Part shown: one piece after another, positions 4,235 through 60,100 of the stretch | Layout: each line of letters starts with the position of its first letter | Position numbering within the stretch: position 1 is the stretch's first letter | Assembly: GCF_900110645.1 (NCBI RefSeq) | Contig: NZ_FOFB01000011.1 | Coordinates: 124,001-188,000 of the forward strand | Length of the DNA: 64,000 bases | Reading direction: 5' to 3' | Origin: Neolewinella agarilytica | GTDB lineage: Bacteria; Bacteroidota; Bacteroidia; Chitinophagales; Saprospiraceae | The notes under the pieces: model-generated | Told to the model about the DNA's origin: nothing | Database searches by the model: none | What the model saw: only the letters and a program-made list of their open reading frames with translations | Position numbers and translations under genes: made by a program

Positions 4235-4617
4235 CTGCGCAGCAGCGCGCCCTGCAACAGCGGCAGCTACTACATTACTACCGAACTACAATACTACACT
4301 ACTATCCTCCAGCTGCGCAGCAGCGTGCCCTGAAACAGCGGTAGCTCTACCAGACTACGAGACTACCAAACTATAATACTACCTCCCCCCAGCTGCGCAG
4401 CAGCGCGCCCAGCAACAGCGGCAGCTACTACATTACTACCGAACTACAATACTACACTACTATCCTCCAGCTGCGCAGCAGCGTGCCCTGAAACAGCGGT
4501 AGCTCTACCAGACTACGAGACTACCAAACTATAATACTACCTCCCCCCAGCTGCGCAGCAGCGCGCCCAGCAACAGCGGCAGCTACTACATTACTACCGA
4601 ACTACAATACTACACTA
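4235..4617. repeat. LR-B tandem array, noncoding, 5 units (78/80 bp)
   Basis: Five units begin with CTGCGCAGCAGCG at 4235, 4313, 4393, 4471 and 4551, so the spacings are 78, 80, 78 and 80. Units alternate between two versions (A-B-A-B-A), which means the duplicated block is about 158 bp. Each unit has a GC-rich head holding the 10-bp palindrome GCTGCGCAGC and ending in GCGGCAGCT or GCGGTAGCT. The tail is a low-complexity TACTAC/ACTACA tract with roughly 10-bp rhythm. The array abuts the stop codon of the minus-strand receptor gene and shares its head with the array inside that gene's 5' end. Confidence 0.9.
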
Positions 4618-7551
4618 CTAATTAACCCGCCTTGCTTCTTCACCCAAGCCTGTATCCCGCGTCCGCGCCTTAATTTTCTGATTGCCGAAGGCATAACTCA
4701 GGGATAGCGCCACCCGCCGGCTGTCATAATTGCCCGCACCGAAGCCCTGCTGACCGTTGAAGTTCGTCTCGCCCGACCAGCCCACCTGATAAAACAGATC
4801 ACTACCTGCCAGTTTGATGTTCAGCTGGTCATTCAGGAACTTTCGCTGTAAACCGAGGTTGAACGACCAACTCTCATCGTATTCAAACACCCCGCCCCAG
4901 ATACCAGGACCGGCAAAAAAGCCGCCGATTTCCCCCGTGAGCTTCCAGGGCAATTTGAAGGTGTGTTGCGTGAAAATGTTGTAGCTGAAAGCCTGCAGGT
5001 CGATCACGGCCCCGTCGCCATAGTCCGCCTGATTATTGATGTGGCTGGCGCTGAGGTTGAAAAAGGCGTCCCATTTGGGCGTGACGGTGAAGGGTAGCGC
5101 TGCGTTGAAACTGATGACGGTGTTCTCCGCCAGATTGTCCCAACTGATGAAACCGGCGCGCGGGTCCACCGGATCCGGACCAATCAGCCGCGTGATCTGG
5201 TCGCTCGTTTTGCTGTACGCCACCTTGAAGTTGTAGCGGTAGGCCAGGGTGTAGCCCAGCTCCAGATTGTCGACAATCTCGGGGTTCAGGGTCGGATTGC
5301 CGAGCTCGAAACTGAGCTGACTTACCTGAATGCGGAAGGGGTTCAGCACGTTGTAATCCGGACGGTTAATGCGGCGGCCATAGTTAAGCGCCAGGCTGTT
5401 ACCCTTCTGTTGGTCGAGCTGATAGGTAAGGCCAGCGGTGGGGAAGAGGCTGACATAGTTCAGGTCAACCGGTGGCTCCGACTGACCGTTGAAGGCCGTC
5501 AGTATTCCCGTCGCATCAGTGATCTCCGCCCGGAGACCGGCGGAGTAACTCATCCGGTCGGAGATGCTGCCCGCATAGCTCAGGTAAGCCGCGTACACGT
5601 TCTCATCGTAGGTAAAGAGATTGGATTGATTGACGTCAAAAGTCTCGTTGCCGCCCACTACGTTGAAGAGCCGGAAGCTGTTGTCCGTCCCCACCTGACT
5701 CAGCTTAATGCCCGTGCCTAGTTTTCCCGTTCCCAATGCTTGCTCGTAGTCAATTTTGAAGGTGTAGATGTCAATGTCCGTTGGCGTATCGAAGTTGTTG
5801 GTGATCTCGCTCAGTTCCGTCAGGCGGTCGGGCGCGAAGTAGACGTTTGGCTGCCGGCGGAAGGCCCGGTTGCGGAAGCGACCGTAGTCGAGGTCGACGT
5901 TCAGGCTTTTTCCTTTGCCCGCCTCATAACGGTAATTGAGGTTAAAGGTGGCGCGGTCCTGATCGTCGTCGGAGCGGGAACGGGCCAGCAGGATGCTGTC
6001 CACCGGCTGGTCGATCCCCGCAATCTCGATATCCGAGCGGTTCGTCTGAATCCCGTGCTGGGTCTGGGCGTCGACCAGGAAGCCGAGCGTGTGTTTGTCG
6101 GAGAGGAAGAAGTCGGTGCCAAAGCGGCCGTTCACGTGGTTCCAGGTGAAAAAATTTCGGGTGTCTTCGAGCGTTTGCAGCCCGTTCTGGAAGGTCAGGA
6201 AGTCGATCTGGGAGAACTGCCGCCCGTCCATCGAGCCCACTTGTCCGAACACATTTAATCGCTTATTGCGGTAATTGCCACCGACGGAGCCGTTCATTTT
6301 CTGGTACCGCCCCTGACTGATGGTGTAGTTGGCCGTTCCGTTGGCGCCTTCGTTTTCGTTTTTCACCAGCCGGATGTCGAGAATGCCGGCGTTGCCCTGA
6401 GCTTCGTACTTCGCGCCGGGGTTGGTGATGATGTCGATCCGGTCGATCTGCTCGGCGGTGAGGCTGCGCAGGTAGGCGGCGAGCTCCGCGCCGCCGAGGG
6501 GAAGGCGCTTGCCATCCACGTAGACGAGCACGCCGGAGCGGCTCAGTACGTTGATGTTGTCGTTATTGTCAATTGTCACGCCGGGAGCCTTGCGCAGCAG
6601 ATCGAGCCCGTTTTCGCCCACGGCATTGATCGTTCCCTGCACGTTGAAGACGGTGCGGTCGGGCTTGATCTCCACGATGGCGCGGCGGGCGGTGACGGTG
6701 GCCGCGTCGAGCTCGACGGCGGCGGGAGCCATGGTCAGTATGCCGAGGTCAAGATCACCGTTGACGGCGAGGTTTTTCACCAGGTCCGGTGCGCCCAGGT
6801 AGGTAGCGATGAGGACATAGGGGCCATCCGCTACCTCCCGAATCCGGAAGAGCCCCGCATCGTCGGTCGTTTCCACTTTCACCAGGTTCGAGTCGGCGTA
6901 GAGGGCCACGTTGGCGTAAGCGACGGGCTCCGCCTCAGCGTTTTGAAGCTGGCCGGTGAGGGTATTTTGGGCGAGTAAAGGGGATAGGGCGGAAAGGAGA
7001 AGGGCGAGGAGGAGTAGGGGACGGCGGGAAATGGCGTGCCCTGCCACAGCGGCAGCTACTGTTTGACTATCTGACTTCCAGATTATTTGACTATCCCCCA
7101 GCTGCGCAGCAGCGTGTCGATTACCAACGGTAGCTACTGTTTGACTATTTGACTTCCAGACTGCTTGACTAATCTCCAGCTGCGCAGCAGCGTGCCCTGC
7201 CACAGCGGCAGCTACTGTTTGACTATCTGACTTCCAGACTATTTGACTATCCCCCAGCTGCGCAGCAGCGTGCTCTGTCACAGCGGTAGCTACTGTTTGA
7301 CTATTTGACTTCCAGACTATTTGACTATCCCCCAGCTGCGCAGCAGCGTGCCCTGTCACAACGGTAGCTACTGTTTGACTATTTGACTTCCAGACTGCTT
7401 GACTAATCTCCAGCTGCGCAGCAGCGTGTCGATTACCAGCGGTAGCTACTGCTTGACTGCTTGACTTCCAGACTGCTTGACTCAGCCGGGCGCGGACGCA
7501 GGTGCAAAGAAAAGTAAAGGAGCAGGGTAGGGGGGGGCGAAATGTCTTCAT
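4618..7551 (-). CDS. TonB-dependent receptor (CarboxypepD-reg, plug, OMP_b-brl_3 type) with repeat-expanded N-terminus
   Basis: This is an outer-membrane beta-barrel receptor of 977 residues. After the N-terminal extension comes a hydrophobic signal-like segment (about 182-197, RRPLLLLALLLSALSPLLAQ). A carboxypeptidase regulatory-like domain follows (TLTGQLQNAEAEPVAYANVA), then a plug (VTIDNNDNINVLSRSG, DRIDIITNPGAKYEA) and the barrel ending SLSYAFGNQKIK. It lacks SusC C-terminal blocks and has no SusD partner, so it is the peptide/siderophore-like OMP_b-brl_3 class. Residues 24-179 are six 26-residue repeats of the SQ-VWKS-SQTVA---HAAAQL type, encoded by the LR-B array. A GTG codon just before the hydrophobic segment (giving MAGHAISRRPLLLL) is an alternative start that would leave the array as untranslated leader. 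A 71%-plus-looking paralogue sits at 20081-22696; that identity is a visual estimate. Confidence 0.9.
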   Translation of the reverse strand: MKTFRPPLPCSFTFLCTCVRARLSQAVWKSSSQAVATAGNRHAAAQLEISQAVWKSNSQTVATVVTGHAAAQLGDSQIVWKSNSQTVATAVTEHAAAQLGDSQIVWKSDSQTVAAAVAGHAAAQLEISQAVWKSNSQTVATVGNRHAAAQLGDSQIIWKSDSQTVAAAVAGHAISRRPLLLLALLLSALSPLLAQNTLTGQLQNAEAEPVAYANVALYADSNLVKVETTDDAGLFRIREVADGPYVLIATYLGAPDLVKNLAVNGDLDLGILTMAPAAVELDAATVTARRAIVEIKPDRTVFNVQGTINAVGENGLDLLRKAPGVTIDNNDNINVLSRSGVLVYVDGKRLPLGGAELAAYLRSLTAEQIDRIDIITNPGAKYEAQGNAGILDIRLVKNENEGANGTANYTISQGRYQKMNGSVGGNYRNKRLNVFGQVGSMDGRQFSQIDFLTFQNGLQTLEDTRNFFTWNHVNGRFGTDFFLSDKHTLGFLVDAQTQHGIQTNRSDIEIAGIDQPVDSILLARSRSDDDQDRATFNLNYRYEAGKGKSLNVDLDYGRFRNRAFRRQPNVYFAPDRLTELSEITNNFDTPTDIDIYTFKIDYEQALGTGKLGTGIKLSQVGTDNSFRLFNVVGGNETFDVNQSNLFTYDENVYAAYLSYAGSISDRMSYSAGLRAEITDATGILTAFNGQSEPPVDLNYVSLFPTAGLTYQLDQQKGNSLALNYGRRINRPDYNVLNPFRIQVSQLSFELGNPTLNPEIVDNLELGYTLAYRYNFKVAYSKTSDQITRLIGPDPVDPRAGFISWDNLAENTVISFNAALPFTVTPKWDAFFNLSASHINNQADYGDGAVIDLQAFSYNIFTQHTFKLPWKLTGEIGGFFAGPGIWGGVFEYDESWSFNLGLQRKFLNDQLNIKLAGSDLFYQVGWSGETNFNGQQGFGAGNYDSRRVALSLSYAFGNQKIKARTRDTGLGEEARRVN
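7015..7482 (-). repeat. LR-B tandem array inside receptor 5' end, six 78-bp units
   Basis: CTGCGCAG recurs at 7102, 7180, 7258, 7336 and 7414, always exactly 78 bp apart, which is 26 codons. The tail of each unit is a TTTGACTAT/TTGACTTCC-rich tract, unlike the TACTAC tail of the array at 4235-4617, while the GC-rich heads match. Two alternating unit versions are again visible (ends GCCCTG-CACAGCGG versus GTCGATTACCA). The frame is kept through all units. Confidence 0.9.
7488..7509 (+). repeat. LR-A dispersed repeat copy (forward)
   Basis: GGGCGCGGACGCAGGTGCAA is followed by an AGAAAAGTAAAGGAGCAGGG flank. It lies in the first codons of the receptor gene and encodes LCTCVRAR on the minus strand. 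The same peptide frame occurs in the paralogue at 22624. Confidence 0.85.
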
Positions 7552-7740
7552 GCTGGGAAGGGAACACTGTTGGAGGGGCGAAGGTCGGGAAAATTGGGGT
7601 AGGCAACCTTTTACCAGCTAACCGCCGTAGGTACTGTTACGAAGTCCTTCGGACGGTAACGTGCTAGTCCGCCAGTGTGAAATCAGGTGAGCATAGTACA
7701 GGATGAATTGCTGCACTCCGCAAAAGCCCGTAGACCGTGG

Positions 7741-20080: not shown

Positions 20081-22696
20081 CTAATTAACCCGCCCCGCTT
20101 CATCCTCCAGCCCCGTCTTCCGCTTGCGGCTCTTGACTTTCTGGTTGCCGAAGGCATAGCTGAGGGAAAGGGCCACGTTGCGGCTGTCCCAGTTACCGCC
20201 ACCCCGGCTGAACTGTCCGTTGAAGTCGGATACGCCCGTCCAGCCACTCTGGAAGAAAATGTCATTGGCGCTGAGCTTGACGTTGAGTTGATCTTTGAGG
20301 AATTTCTTCTGCAACCCCAGGTTCAGCGCCCAGCTTTCGTCGTACTCAAACACGCCACCCCAGATGCCGGGGCCGGCAAAGTAGCCCGACACTTCAAAGG
20401 TGAATTTACCGGGCAACTTGAAGGTTTGCTGCTGAAAGACACTGTAGCTAAAGGCTTGCAGGTCAATGGTGCCATCTTCGCCGTAGTCCGCCTGATTGTT
20501 GATGTGGCTGGCGCTGAAGTTCACGAAGGCATCCCAGCTTTTGGTGACCGTGAAGGGCAGGCTGGCGTTGAAGCTGATGACCGTTTTTTCGGCCAGATTG
20601 TCCCAGCCGATGAAGCCGGCCCGCGGGTCGATGTCGTCCGGGCCAATGAGGCGTGTGATCTGGTCAGAGGTCTTACTGTAAGCCAGCTTGAAGTTGTAGC
20701 GCCAGGCCAGGGTATAGCCAATTTCGAGGTTATCGACAATCTCGGGCCGCAGATTAGGGTTGCCCCGCTCGTAGCTGAGCTGGCTGATCTGGTTGCGGAA
20801 GGGGTTGAGCACGTTGTAATCCGGCCGGTTGATCCGGCGGCCGTAGTTCAGCGCGATGGTGTTGCCCTTGCGCTGGTCCAGCGTGTAGGTGATACCCGCT
20901 GATGGGAACAAACTTTCGTAGTTAATCTCCACGGGGTCTTCCTGCAGGTCTTCCCGGAAGGCCGTAAGTGCTCCGGTAGCGTCGGTGATCTCCGTTCGCA
21001 GTCCCGCGGAGTAACTGATTTTATCGTTGATCTTTCCGGCGTAGCTCAGATAGGCGGCGTACACGTTTTCGTCGTAGTCAAAGATATTCGAGCGGACGTC
21101 GCTACGGATTTCCTCGTTACCAATCTCATCAAAGAAGAGGAAGGTGTTGTTCGTACCTACCTGACTCAGCTTGATGCCCGCACCAAACTGCCCCTTGCCA
21201 ATCGGCTGCTCATAGTCCACTTTAAAGGTGTAGATGTCGATGTCGCGCGGTGTGTCGAAAGTATTAATTACTTCTGTGAGTACTGTTTCCCGGTCTGGAC
21301 TAACGTAAATATTAGGCTGTCGGCGCATTTCGGTGTTTCGGAAAGTACCGTAGTCCAGGTCAACGTTCAGACTTTTACCCTTTCCTGGGTCGTAGCGGTA
21401 ATTAAGGTTGAATTCGGCCCGGTTTCGTTCGCCATTTCCGGAGGAACCTGCGAGTAGTATGCTGTCTACTGGTCCACCGACGGTAGAAATCAGGAAATCA
21501 TCCGTGCCATAACCACTTACGTCCTGCATACTTCCGCTGGCCAGGAAACCAACGGTACTGTTTTTACTCAGGAAAAAGTCAGTGCCGAACTGGCCAAAGT
21601 AATCCCGTGCATTGTTTCTGCCGAACATGGTTTCCACCAGATTCAGCCCGTTCTGAATCATGTCGAAATTGATGCGGTTGAAATTTTCACTACGAACGGT
21701 ACCCACCCGGCTGTATACGTTCATTTTTGCGTTTCGGTAATTGCCCGCCACGGAGGCGTTGGAGCGGTTGTAGCGGCCCTGGGTAGAGGTCAGGTTAGCG
21801 GTTCCGTTGGCGCCCTCGTTTTCGGCTTTCGCCAGCCGGATGTCGATAATGCCAGCATTCCCTTCCGCTTCGTATTTAGCTCCGGGGTTGGTGATGATGT
21901 CGATCCGGTCAATTTGCTCGGCGGTGAGGCTGCGCAGGTAGTTCGCCAGTTCTTCGCCGGCCAGCGGCAGGCGTTTACCGTTGACGTAAACCAGCACTCC
22001 GGAGCGACTCAGCACGTTGATGTTCTCGTTGTTGTCGATCGTCACGCCGGGGGCTTTGCGCAAGAGGTCGAGCCCGTTTTGGCCTACGGCATTGATGGTG
22101 CCCTGAACGTTGAAAACGGTACGGTCGGGCTTCACTTCCACCAGGGCGCGGGTGGCGGTGACGGTGGCTTCGGCCAGCTCCACGGCGGCGGGTGCCATTT
22201 GTAGTACGCCGAGGTCCAGTACCCCGTTTTGGGCTTCGATGCCTTCCTTGCGAAGATCCGGCGCACCGAGGTAGGTCACCACCAGATCGTATATCCCATC
22301 GGCAATGCCTTCCATCTTGAAGAGGCCCGCATCGTCGGTGGTTTCCACCTTCACGAGTTTACCGTCCGGGGTGGTGTAAAGCGCAACGTTGGCGAAGGGA
22401 ACGGGAAGTCCGTCGGCGTCTTGTACCTGGCCCTTGATCTCATAATCGCCGGTTAGTTCTATACCGTCAATGGCGGGAGCCACGGCCGTTTGGGCTTGCA
22501 GGTTGAAGGAGGAAAGCAGTGCCAGCAGGAAACCCCAAGTGGACAATTTCACGAACGGAGCGAGCCCTGTATTCGCGGTAGCTACTATTTGACCATTTAA
22601 CTTTCTGACTACCTGACTCTTCCGGGCGCTGACGCAGGTGCAGAGTAAAAGGTTGAAAGAGCAAAGAAAATAAGCGCGTAGTATTGTTAGTTTCAT
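20081..22696 (-). CDS. TonB-dependent receptor, paralogue of 4618-7551
   Basis: This 871-residue outer-membrane receptor has the same architecture as its paralogue: carboxypeptidase regulatory-like domain (YEIKGQVQDADGLPVPFANV), plug (VTIDNNENINVLSRSGVLVY, DRIDIITNPGAKYEAEG) and a barrel ending SLSYAFGNQKVKSRKRKTG. Most plug and barrel blocks are near-identical between the two. The N-terminus MKLTILRAYFLCSFNLLLCT reads into CVSARKSQVVRKLNGQIVATA, which is one LR-A copy plus one unit of the spacer that is expanded sixfold in the paralogue. The signal-like segment then follows (GFLLALLSSFNLQAQ). No SusD is present. The ligand is unknown. Confidence 0.9.
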   Translation of the reverse strand: MKLTILRAYFLCSFNLLLCTCVSARKSQVVRKLNGQIVATANTGLAPFVKLSTWGFLLALLSSFNLQAQTAVAPAIDGIELTGDYEIKGQVQDADGLPVPFANVALYTTPDGKLVKVETTDDAGLFKMEGIADGIYDLVVTYLGAPDLRKEGIEAQNGVLDLGVLQMAPAAVELAEATVTATRALVEVKPDRTVFNVQGTINAVGQNGLDLLRKAPGVTIDNNENINVLSRSGVLVYVNGKRLPLAGEELANYLRSLTAEQIDRIDIITNPGAKYEAEGNAGIIDIRLAKAENEGANGTANLTSTQGRYNRSNASVAGNYRNAKMNVYSRVGTVRSENFNRINFDMIQNGLNLVETMFGRNNARDYFGQFGTDFFLSKNSTVGFLASGSMQDVSGYGTDDFLISTVGGPVDSILLAGSSGNGERNRAEFNLNYRYDPGKGKSLNVDLDYGTFRNTEMRRQPNIYVSPDRETVLTEVINTFDTPRDIDIYTFKVDYEQPIGKGQFGAGIKLSQVGTNNTFLFFDEIGNEEIRSDVRSNIFDYDENVYAAYLSYAGKINDKISYSAGLRTEITDATGALTAFREDLQEDPVEINYESLFPSAGITYTLDQRKGNTIALNYGRRINRPDYNVLNPFRNQISQLSYERGNPNLRPEIVDNLEIGYTLAWRYNFKLAYSKTSDQITRLIGPDDIDPRAGFIGWDNLAEKTVISFNASLPFTVTKSWDAFVNFSASHINNQADYGEDGTIDLQAFSYSVFQQQTFKLPGKFTFEVSGYFAGPGIWGGVFEYDESWALNLGLQKKFLKDQLNVKLSANDIFFQSGWTGVSDFNGQFSRGGGNWDSRNVALSLSYAFGNQKVKSRKRKTGLEDEAGRVN
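22572..22660 (+). repeat. LR-B spacer plus LR-A copy inside receptor 5' end
   Basis: GCGGTAGCTACTATTTGACC leads into a TGACTACCTGACTC tract and GGGCGCTGACGCAGGTGCAG at 22624. The outer flank AAAGGTTGAAAGAGCAAAG matches the LR-A consensus. It is translated in the same frame as the copy at 7488. Confidence 0.8.
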
Positions 22697-57140: not shown

Positions 57141-60100
57141 ATGCTCTGCTTCAATCCTCTTTCTCCCCCTCAATGGCGTGCCGCTTTACTGGCTGTCTTA
57201 ATATTTGGAGTTTTCTTTCCATTAACGGCACAGACGACATACACGGTCAACAACACCAGTGCAGATGTGGCTACGGTTAACTCTCTTCCCTGGGCAATCG
57301 CTCAGGCAAACCTGGATGCTGCCGCCGATGTGATTAATATCACTGCTACGGGAACGATGACCTCTACGGCTACATTGATCATCACCGAGCCGGTATCCAT
57401 CAACGGTACTTCAACGGGAGGTGTACCAAACTTCATCCTTAGTGGAACGGTGGGGCTTTTAAGAACTGTCGGAACCAAGACGGGGCTAACCATCACTAAC
57501 CTTGGATTTCTTGGAGCAGCTGGTAATTTTGGCAACAACCTGGCGATTGACGTTGATAACTGGACAGACGTTGAAATCTCCAATTGTAAGTTCGAGCTAA
57601 TTCGCAGAACCGCCATCGAAGTAACCAGTGGTAGCGACGTGACGATCACGAACAATGAATTTATCGATTGTGGTGGCGCGGCCGGTGGCTATATTGTTAA
57701 CCTTGCAAGTATGACCGATGTTGCAGGCGACCGCCTGACGATGGCAGGCAATACGTTCTCCGGCGGTGCAAATGCCGTATTCCTTGCTGGAATGGACGGC
57801 CTTGCAATTGCAAATGCCGGATCGACTGAAGTGCTTTTACCGGACAACGACGGCAGAAAAACCGTGGGAGGAACGAACCTTCGCCTTCAGAACTGTCCCG
57901 ACGCAAGTCTTGCCAATGTTGACTTAAGCTTTGATAATGGTGCCAGCGGTATCACCGGAACCGGGCTCAGCACCCTTAATTGCGCCAATTTGACGGTAAA
58001 CAACCTGACGATTGACCGCCGTAATAATGGTATTCAAGTAGACAACTCCGAAACGGTAAGTGTCACCAATAATACACTGACTAACGTCAATACGATTGGT
58101 GTAGGGGTTACTGGTGGAAGCAGTGCTACGGTTACGGGCAATAGCTTTACCAGCTGCGGAGGAGGCGCTGGTAGATATAATCTCGAACTGAATAGCATCT
58201 CAGCGGTAGGTGGCTCTCGGGTAACAGTGAGCGGAAATACTTTCTCCGGTGGATCAAACGCTGTTTCGATTATTGGAATGGACGGGGTTACGGTCGCAAA
58301 CACCGGGTCTCCTGAAGTGCTTTTATCGGACACTGATGGCAGAAAAACCGTAGGCGGAACCAACCTTCGCTTTCAGAACTGTGCCGACGTAAGTCTTGCC
58401 AATTTTGACTTAGGCTTTGATAATGGTGCCAGCAGTATCAACGGAACCGGGCTCAGTACCCTTAATTGTGCTAATTTAGTGGTAGACAATCTGACGATTG
58501 ACCGCCGTGGTAATGGTCTTCTAGTAGACAACTCCGAAACGGTAAGTGTCATCAATAATACGCTGACTAACGTCAATACGATTGGTATAAGAGTCAATGG
58601 TGGAAGCAGTGCTACGGTTACGGGCAACAGTTTTACCAGTTGCGGAGGAGCGGGTGGTAGATATAATCTCGAGCTGTTTAACATCTCAGACGTAGGTGGC
58701 TCCCGGTTAATGGCGAGCGGAAACACGTTCTCCGGCGGTGGTAATGCCGTATGGATTTCAGGAATGGACGGGGTTACGGTCGCAAACACAGGGTCCCCTG
58801 AAGTGCTTTTACCAGACAGCGATGGCAGAAAAACCGTAGGAGGAACGAACCTTTACCTTCAAAACTGCCCTAACGTAAGTCTTGCCAATTTTGACTTAGG
58901 CTTTGATAATGGTGCCAGCGGTATCACCGGAACCGGGCTCTACGCCAGCGGCTGTGCTAATTTAATGGTAGACAATCTGACGATTGACCGCCGTAGTAAT
59001 GGTCTTCAAGTAGACAACTCCGAAACCGTAAGCGTCACCAATAATACGCTGACTAACGTCAGTAGGACTGGTATAAGAGTTAATGGTGGAAGCAGTGCTA
59101 CGGTTACGGGCAATAGCTTTACCAGTTGCGGAGGAGCCGGTAGTAGATATAATCTCGAGCTGAATAACATCTCAGACGTAGGTGGCTCCCGGTTAACGGC
59201 GAGCGGAAATACATTCTCCGGCGGAGGAAATGCCGTATGGATTGCAGCAATGGACGGGGTTACGATCGCAAACACCGGGTCTCCTGAAGTGCTTTTACCA
59301 GACAACGATGGCAGAAAAACCGTAGGAGGAACGAACCTTTACCTTCAAAACTGCCCTAACGTAAGTCTTGCCGATTTTGACTTAAGCTTCGATAATGGTG
59401 CCAGCGGTATCAACGGAATCGGACTCAACGCCAGTGGCTGTGCCAATTTAATGGTAGACAATCTGACGGTTGATCGCCGGTCTGTTGGTGTTCAGGTTTA
59501 CAACTCCGCAACAGGAAGCGTCACGAATAGCAATATTAGTAATGCAAACTTTACCGCCATTCGCGTATCGGACGGTAGCAACGTAACGGTTACCGGTAAC
59601 ACCATTGGCACCTCCGGAGGTGCTGGTAGCCGCTACGCGCTGGAGCTACTAAGCATTTCGGCTGATGGCGGCCCACGGATGAACGTCAGCGGGAACACCT
59701 TCGCTGGTGGTGCAAACGCCGTTTGGATTCATAATATGGATGGAGTGACCGTTAAGAATGTCGCGCCCGCAGAGGTCATACTCGCGGACGACGACGGTCG
59801 TGCTTCCGTTGCTGGGACCAACTTAAAGGTTCAAAGTAGCCCCAATACTACGCTAACCGACCTCGATCTATCTTACAGTGGAACAGGGCCTAGCGGCACT
59901 GGCTTGTTCGGGGCGAGCACCGCCAACCTTTCCGTAAGTGGCGCAACGATTACTGATCGCTTGATTGGAGTGCAGCTGGATAACTGTGTGAACTCTTCAG
60001 TAATGGACAACACCCTTACGAACAACACAATTAAAGGCATTTTCATTAGAAGCGGCGAAAACGCTACCGTAACCGGCAATGCCCTGACGAACTGTGGCGG

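Follow-up and report, generated by a model that had tools for sequence, protein, structure and literature searches.

An in-frame array of palindromic repeats in the leader of a TonB-dependent-receptor-like gene of Neolewinella agarilytica, beside a candidate DNA uptake sequence

In Neolewinella agarilytica, the gene of a TonB-dependent-receptor-like protein contains a tandem array of a palindromic repeat whose other copies are mostly intergenic, and this array is a real, in-frame insert. The explanation that we favor, and that we consider likely, is that an intergenic element was inserted in frame beside a hyperabundant word and then expanded, with translation starting at ATG 7551 and the array serving as a passive spacer. 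The array was studied in a stretch of 64,000 nucleotides (the window) from a genome of 6.22 Mb in 74 contigs; statements about the whole genome are based on searches and on stretches that total about 0.8 Mb.

Anatomy of the receptor leader

The receptor is encoded on the minus strand by an ORF of 977 aa (7551-4618), with Pfam matches to a carboxypeptidase-regulatory-like domain, a plug and an OMP_b-brl_3 barrel. Its closest named match is the N. persica orthologue, with 87% identity. The mature receptor occupies 4618-6969, as judged from the Pfam matches and from orthologues, 87-88% identical, that begin with QNT at the same point. Preceding it on the same strand is a leader in which the array separates signal peptide 1 from a second signal-like segment. 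The ATG and signal peptide 1 (MKTFRPPLPCSFTFLCTCVRA) lie at 7489-7551, in the position of the single signal peptide of the orthologues, and the last codons of this peptide (CTCVRA) coincide with the word TTGCACCTGCGTCCGCGCC (7489-7507, equivalent to C24:131489-131507), which is hyperabundant in the genome. The array extends over 7033-7482, codons 24 to 173 of the ORF, and its first AGTCAA is located 6 nt past the word. Segment 2 (ISRRPLLLLALLLSALSPLLA, 6970-7032) has the most hydrophobic 12-residue stretch among those compared, with a Kyte-Doolittle mean of 2.70 versus 1.76 for segment 1. The value for signal peptide 1 is also lower than those of the orthologues' signal peptides (2.39-2.41), and this may reflect decay of that peptide.

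An initial annotation had described an in-frame 26-residue repeat at the N-terminus of the receptor, and TRF and direct reading bear this out, with unit starts on the minus strand spaced 78, 78, 78, 78 and 78 bp apart within 7034-7482. The peptide units are regular, with SQxVWKS..HAAAQL in each 26 residues, and SNSQTVATAVTEHAAAQLGDSQIVWK is an example of a peptide that the array would yield. The annotated six units of exactly 78 bp are in fact five such units followed by a 60-bp partial one (7092-7033). Similarly, the array does lie between the start codon and a signal-like segment, as had been stated, but this segment is the second of two and signal peptide 1 (7551-7489) precedes the array. 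A noncoding array of the same family, on the plus strand at the 3' end of the receptor gene (4235-4620), alternates between 78 and 80 bp, in agreement with the variation originally reported for it.

A paralogous receptor gene in the window (20081-22696, minus strand) has the same leader order, with the word at 22625-22643 within its signal peptide 1, about one repeat unit, as had been noted, which is degenerate, and then a segment 2. The related receptor loci examined have one signal peptide, directly before the mature domain, and no array, and in many orthologues the signal peptide ends with LCT(C/S)xxA before a Q, i.e. at the word. The occurrence of segment 2 in both paralogues is not accounted for by simple insertion. 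Its derivation as a duplicate of segment 1 was considered and rejected, because the two do not resemble each other significantly at the DNA level (z 2.3 and 3.5, values no better than those of some shuffles or unrelated signal peptides).

The repeat family and the origin of the array

With one unit as the query, 69 matches were found in the genome (best E 1.7e-34). Each member of the family combines a hairpin-like core (GTAGCTGCC...GCTGCGCAGCTGG) with linkers made up of the octamers AGTCARNN or GTAGTANT. The element is palindromic, with AGTCARNN octamers around a GTAGCTGCC..GCTGCGCAGC core, and in numerous intergenic copies the octamers form long inverted repeats. Of the 66 clusters of the element in the sampled genome, 58 are outside ORFs of at least 150 aa, even though about 88% of the DNA falls in ORFs of at least 100 aa. 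Arrays of another linker class with a similar core were also seen; their cores are of the AAGCTGCGCAGCAGCC type, AATCTGTGTAAATCCGTG is one of their linkers, and they are located at L060 (C27:220281-221075), where the period alternates between 57 and 67 bp, and at L067 (C38).

The strictness of the 78-bp period had been taken as a sign that translation is maintained. This argument does not survive comparison with other arrays of the family, which keep strict periods of 80 bp (five times, C32), 73/74 bp (C65), 77 bp (C36) and mostly 81 bp (C34), or with the codon differences given below. The C34 array is stop-free in one frame and its ORF appears to be antisense to a gene, so that an open frame alone is weak evidence of translation. 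At the same site in the sister genome G009, beside the homologous gene end, the units are 83 bp long with a different linker. The existence of strict arrays with other periods, together with this contrast between C34 and G009, suggests that strictness reflects recent tandem duplication rather than a reading frame, and that arrays of this family turn over fast. The units of the receptor array provide a further comparison. When the five full units are read in the frame of the ORF, codons with a single difference comprise 27 non-synonymous and 0 synonymous cases, with about 28% synonymous expected if there were no selection, these counts being pairwise between units and hence not independent. There is no sign in these unit differences of purifying selection on the array peptide. 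Across the six units 29 columns are variable, and unit 1 resembles unit 3, and unit 2 unit 6, in blocks, which is consistent with unequal crossing-over. A structured RNA was also sought; the folding of single units is no better than that of shuffled sequences, and an Rfam search of the window gave no match.

The insert recurs in a third gene. A cyclomaltodextrinase-like gene on C27 of the same genome (L167:8940-10940) carries SSQTVRESNSQGVG, with the octamers in the frame used in the receptor. This insert (L167:9320-9380) is situated between the N-terminal and catalytic domains, and Pfam domains were matched on either side of it. It is retained in frame in the sister species (G009, locus L254), whereas the loop in its place is shorter or unrelated in most other relatives. 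Since the enzyme needs read-through of the insert, this lineage appears to translate inserts of this kind and to tolerate them. In all three genes the first octamer is located 6 nt past the GCGCC with which the word ends, and in the same frame (S-Q-x-V), the word in the cyclomaltodextrinase gene being a variant of TTGCACCTGCGTCCGCGCC. In four intergenic copies (L053, L068, L079 and L080) the gap between word and octamer is 4 to 6 nt. Altogether 5 of 34 octamer elements begin within 12 bp of the 3' edge of the word and 0 of 34 at its 5' edge, with about 0.2 expected per side; one looser case at the 5' edge (L085) is 31 bp from the word.

We propose that a normally intergenic palindromic element landed in frame a few bases 3' of the word in the codons of the signal peptide, and that the inserted element then expanded by unequal crossing-over into 78-bp units. 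Because the unit is a stop-free stretch of 26 codons in this frame, read-through would persist at each step and only the leader would grow. The product made from ATG 7551 would then begin with the ancestral signal peptide, followed by about 150 residues of passive spacer, segment 2 and the receptor.

There are precedents for inserts of this kind. The Rickettsia palindromic elements (RPEs) are MITE-like and are found as in-frame inserts in protein genes (PMC10969869). The Neolewinella element resembles them in being short, palindromic and often intergenic, with some copies in frame in unrelated genes, where they are tolerated: it is in frame in the receptor, its paralogue and the cyclomaltodextrinase and absent in most relatives. 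It differs in expanding into tandem arrays and in abutting a second element, the hyperabundant word, and no sequence relation to the RPEs is claimed. By this analogy the array would be ordinary in kind, whereas its setting beside a candidate uptake sequence is not. The array adds another lineage in which noncoding repeats appear to become translated inserts, with a record in three genes and a sister species. The open-licence literature that we searched contained nothing relevant on repeats in Lewinella.

The family also shares with REP/BIME sequences, which are associated with RAYT, tandem GC-rich hairpins, GTAG at one side and many intergenic copies. However, the Y1_Tnp genes that have adjoining arrays are accompanied by different repeats. 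A link to RAYT and REP was rejected because the receptor repeat family is absent, when read by eye, from the 350-bp flanks of the ORFs at five Y1_Tnp loci, at one of which (L033) the ORF called is probably not the transposase itself. No transposition machinery could be linked to the element among the Y1_Tnp/RAYT-type loci examined. At two loci, L034 (C27) and L035 (C30), Y1_Tnp/RAYT-type genes are flanked by other REP-like tandem arrays.

The start site and alternative readings

For the paralogue, the similarity of the upstream DNA to that of the related locus L156 extends as far as the ATG (z 11.6), and there is a further alignment with L142 (z 7.2). The upstream DNA of the receptor gene matches that of L156 (z 5.1) and, less clearly, that of L037 (z 3.3), with a GACCTT(T/C)G box in the aligned region. 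A promoter-like box, GACCTTCG, is located at 7579-7586 on the minus strand, and similar boxes are found 5' of the genes of relatives: GACCTTCG at L037, GACCTTTG at L039 and L156 as well as at the paralogue, and AACCTTTG at L148. The consensus of the Bacteroidota -7-type promoter element is TAnnTTTG, and the box at 7579-7586, upstream of the start, is likely to be such an element. The upstream alignments and the position of the signal peptide in the orthologues support the conclusion that ATG 7551 and ATG 22696 are the ancestral starts and that segment 1 is the ancestral signal peptide. The possibility that signal peptide 1 is an ORF open by chance across a composite noncoding element was entertained because the layout of word plus octamer also occurs in intergenic DNA, and was dismissed because the signal peptide of the orthologues sits at the word. 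ATG 7551 is therefore probably still the start of the receptor, and the array is probably translated and passive. Thus, the earlier claim of translation probably holds. It is supported not by the period but by the retained start and its promoter region, by the conserved location of signal peptide 1 and by the three genes with in-frame inserts.

It is instead possible that translation begins downstream, at GTG 7047 or at ATT 7032, giving MAGHAISRRPLLLLALLLSALSPLLAQ, with signal peptide 1 and the array left as a relic ORF in a long 5' leader that is translated little or not at all. There is no GTG in the reading frame at 7021-7036, where a start had been suggested; the closest one in frame is at 7047-7045, and the codon at 7032-7030 is ATT. 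This GTG directly precedes the strongest hydrophobic segment, and in the paralogue a GTG at 22552 likewise stands directly 5' of segment 2 (VKLSTWGFLLALLSSFNLQAQ). The lack of peptide constraint in the unit differences would also be expected from such a leader. Against this, relatives share the start and promoter region 5' of signal peptide 1, and in both paralogues the frame runs without interruption through the insert, for which there would be no need if it were not translated. Furthermore, the cyclomaltodextrinase must read through a like insert between two enzyme domains. On these grounds we regard a downstream start as unlikely, although it is the least improbable of the alternatives.

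The initial annotation had also raised a phase-variation-like or tunable control, in which the number of repeats would alter the distance from start to signal and thereby export of the receptor. The copy number probably does change, as arrays of the family differ in period and linker between sister species, and a tandem array at the 5' end of a gene for a surface protein recalls the contingency loci. Unlike those loci, however, a unit of 26 codons cannot switch the frame, since each step of 78 bp just adds 26 residues, and the array is an expanded intergenic element. Moreover, the variable columns among the six units show that this is no freshly slipping tract, and a signal peptide at a conserved start already precedes it. 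The proposed control thus finds no support and we consider it very improbable; the array presumably has no regulatory role. Equally remote is a functional N-terminal domain, for binding or as a spacer, that is selected for its sequence. The frame and the regularity of the 26-residue units would fit such a domain, but the absence of synonymous changes among the single-difference codons would not, the array is missing from all of the orthologues found and its sequence is that of the noncoding copies. For these reasons we retain the in-frame insertion and passive expansion of an intergenic element as the preferred explanation.

The hyperabundant word

At one mismatch or fewer, TTGCACCTGCGTCCGCGCC occurs 780 times in the genome, 370 times in the forward and 410 times in the reverse orientation, and the reversed-pattern control occurs once, so that its copies are far above chance on both strands. 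In the window, sites of the form TTGCACCTGCGNCNGCGCC are at 7489-7507, 22625-22643, 11593, 11637, 15766 and 15868. A sample of 464 kb, comprising the window and two stretches of C27 that were picked irrespective of the word, contains 89 copies with no more than two mismatches, of which 37% are outside ORFs. Copies within genes are read in several frames, as GADAGA, ARTQVQ, APASAP and LHLRPR, and in signal peptides as CTCVSAQ. Between genes, pairs in opposite orientation are common.

In a comparison of 41 genomes, the present one and those of relatives, the word was in effect confined to the genus, in which it ranges from 0 to 1034 copies; outside the genus single one-mismatch matches were found in two genomes. 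HisD has the same length in all 21 genomes, with the word at a fixed place across the genus, but in several genomes with low copy numbers the word there is decayed or lost. This genic copy thus arose by substitution and not by insertion, and the idea that the word is the end of a transposable element was rejected because of this same-length substitution. A genome with zero copies (G001) has TACCTGCGCTCCGCCGCC instead, with 20 copies in 280 kb. One with three copies (G010) has an unrelated, overrepresented word, CAAAGTAGCA (GRCTNNCAAAGTAGCAATG on contig C46, L201-L206), of which 120 kb contain 25 copies, 13 on one strand and 12 on the other. In four further low-copy genomes no substitute word was found in 100 kb each. 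In the sister genome G009 (HisD 94%), the assembly of which is 55% complete, there is no close match to the receptor, the best being 51%.

To our knowledge, DNA tags of the uptake type have so far come from only two other bacterial families. The USS of the Pasteurellaceae are known DNA uptake sequences. So are the DUS of the Neisseriaceae (PMC3630211). Like these, the word has hundreds of copies on both strands, lies in several gene frames and in intergenic inverted pairs, and has counterparts in related genomes that may be dialects; it differs from them in coming from Bacteroidota rather than Proteobacteria and in having a core of about 19 bp. No uptake sequence in Bacteroidota is described in the open-licence literature that we searched. 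ComEC and DprA are present in the genome. These proteins are also found in many bacteria without specific uptake, and their presence is only permissive. The copy number, strand balance, restriction to the genus, origin by substitution and possible dialects make the word a strong candidate for a DNA uptake sequence. On balance we lean, by a small measure, toward the fuller proposal that cTTGCACCTGCG[TG]C[CA]GCGCC, the word at the cleavage-site codons, is a Neolewinella uptake sequence with dialects, of a third independent origin and in Bacteroidota, that shapes proteins and next to whose 3' edge the repeat lands by preference. If this is true, the evolution of uptake specificity could be tested in a third, unrelated group, and the word would shape signal peptides (CTCVSAQ) and other protein segments.

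Two other repeats are present. The words AGAAGGATTAAGAC and TCATCCATCACAAGAAGG have about 60 copies in the 464-kb sample (L167-L186 and the window), probably in one long repetitive gene, and at 57750-59529 of the window a 486-bp tandem repeat is present in 3.7 copies, probably within a repeat-protein gene.
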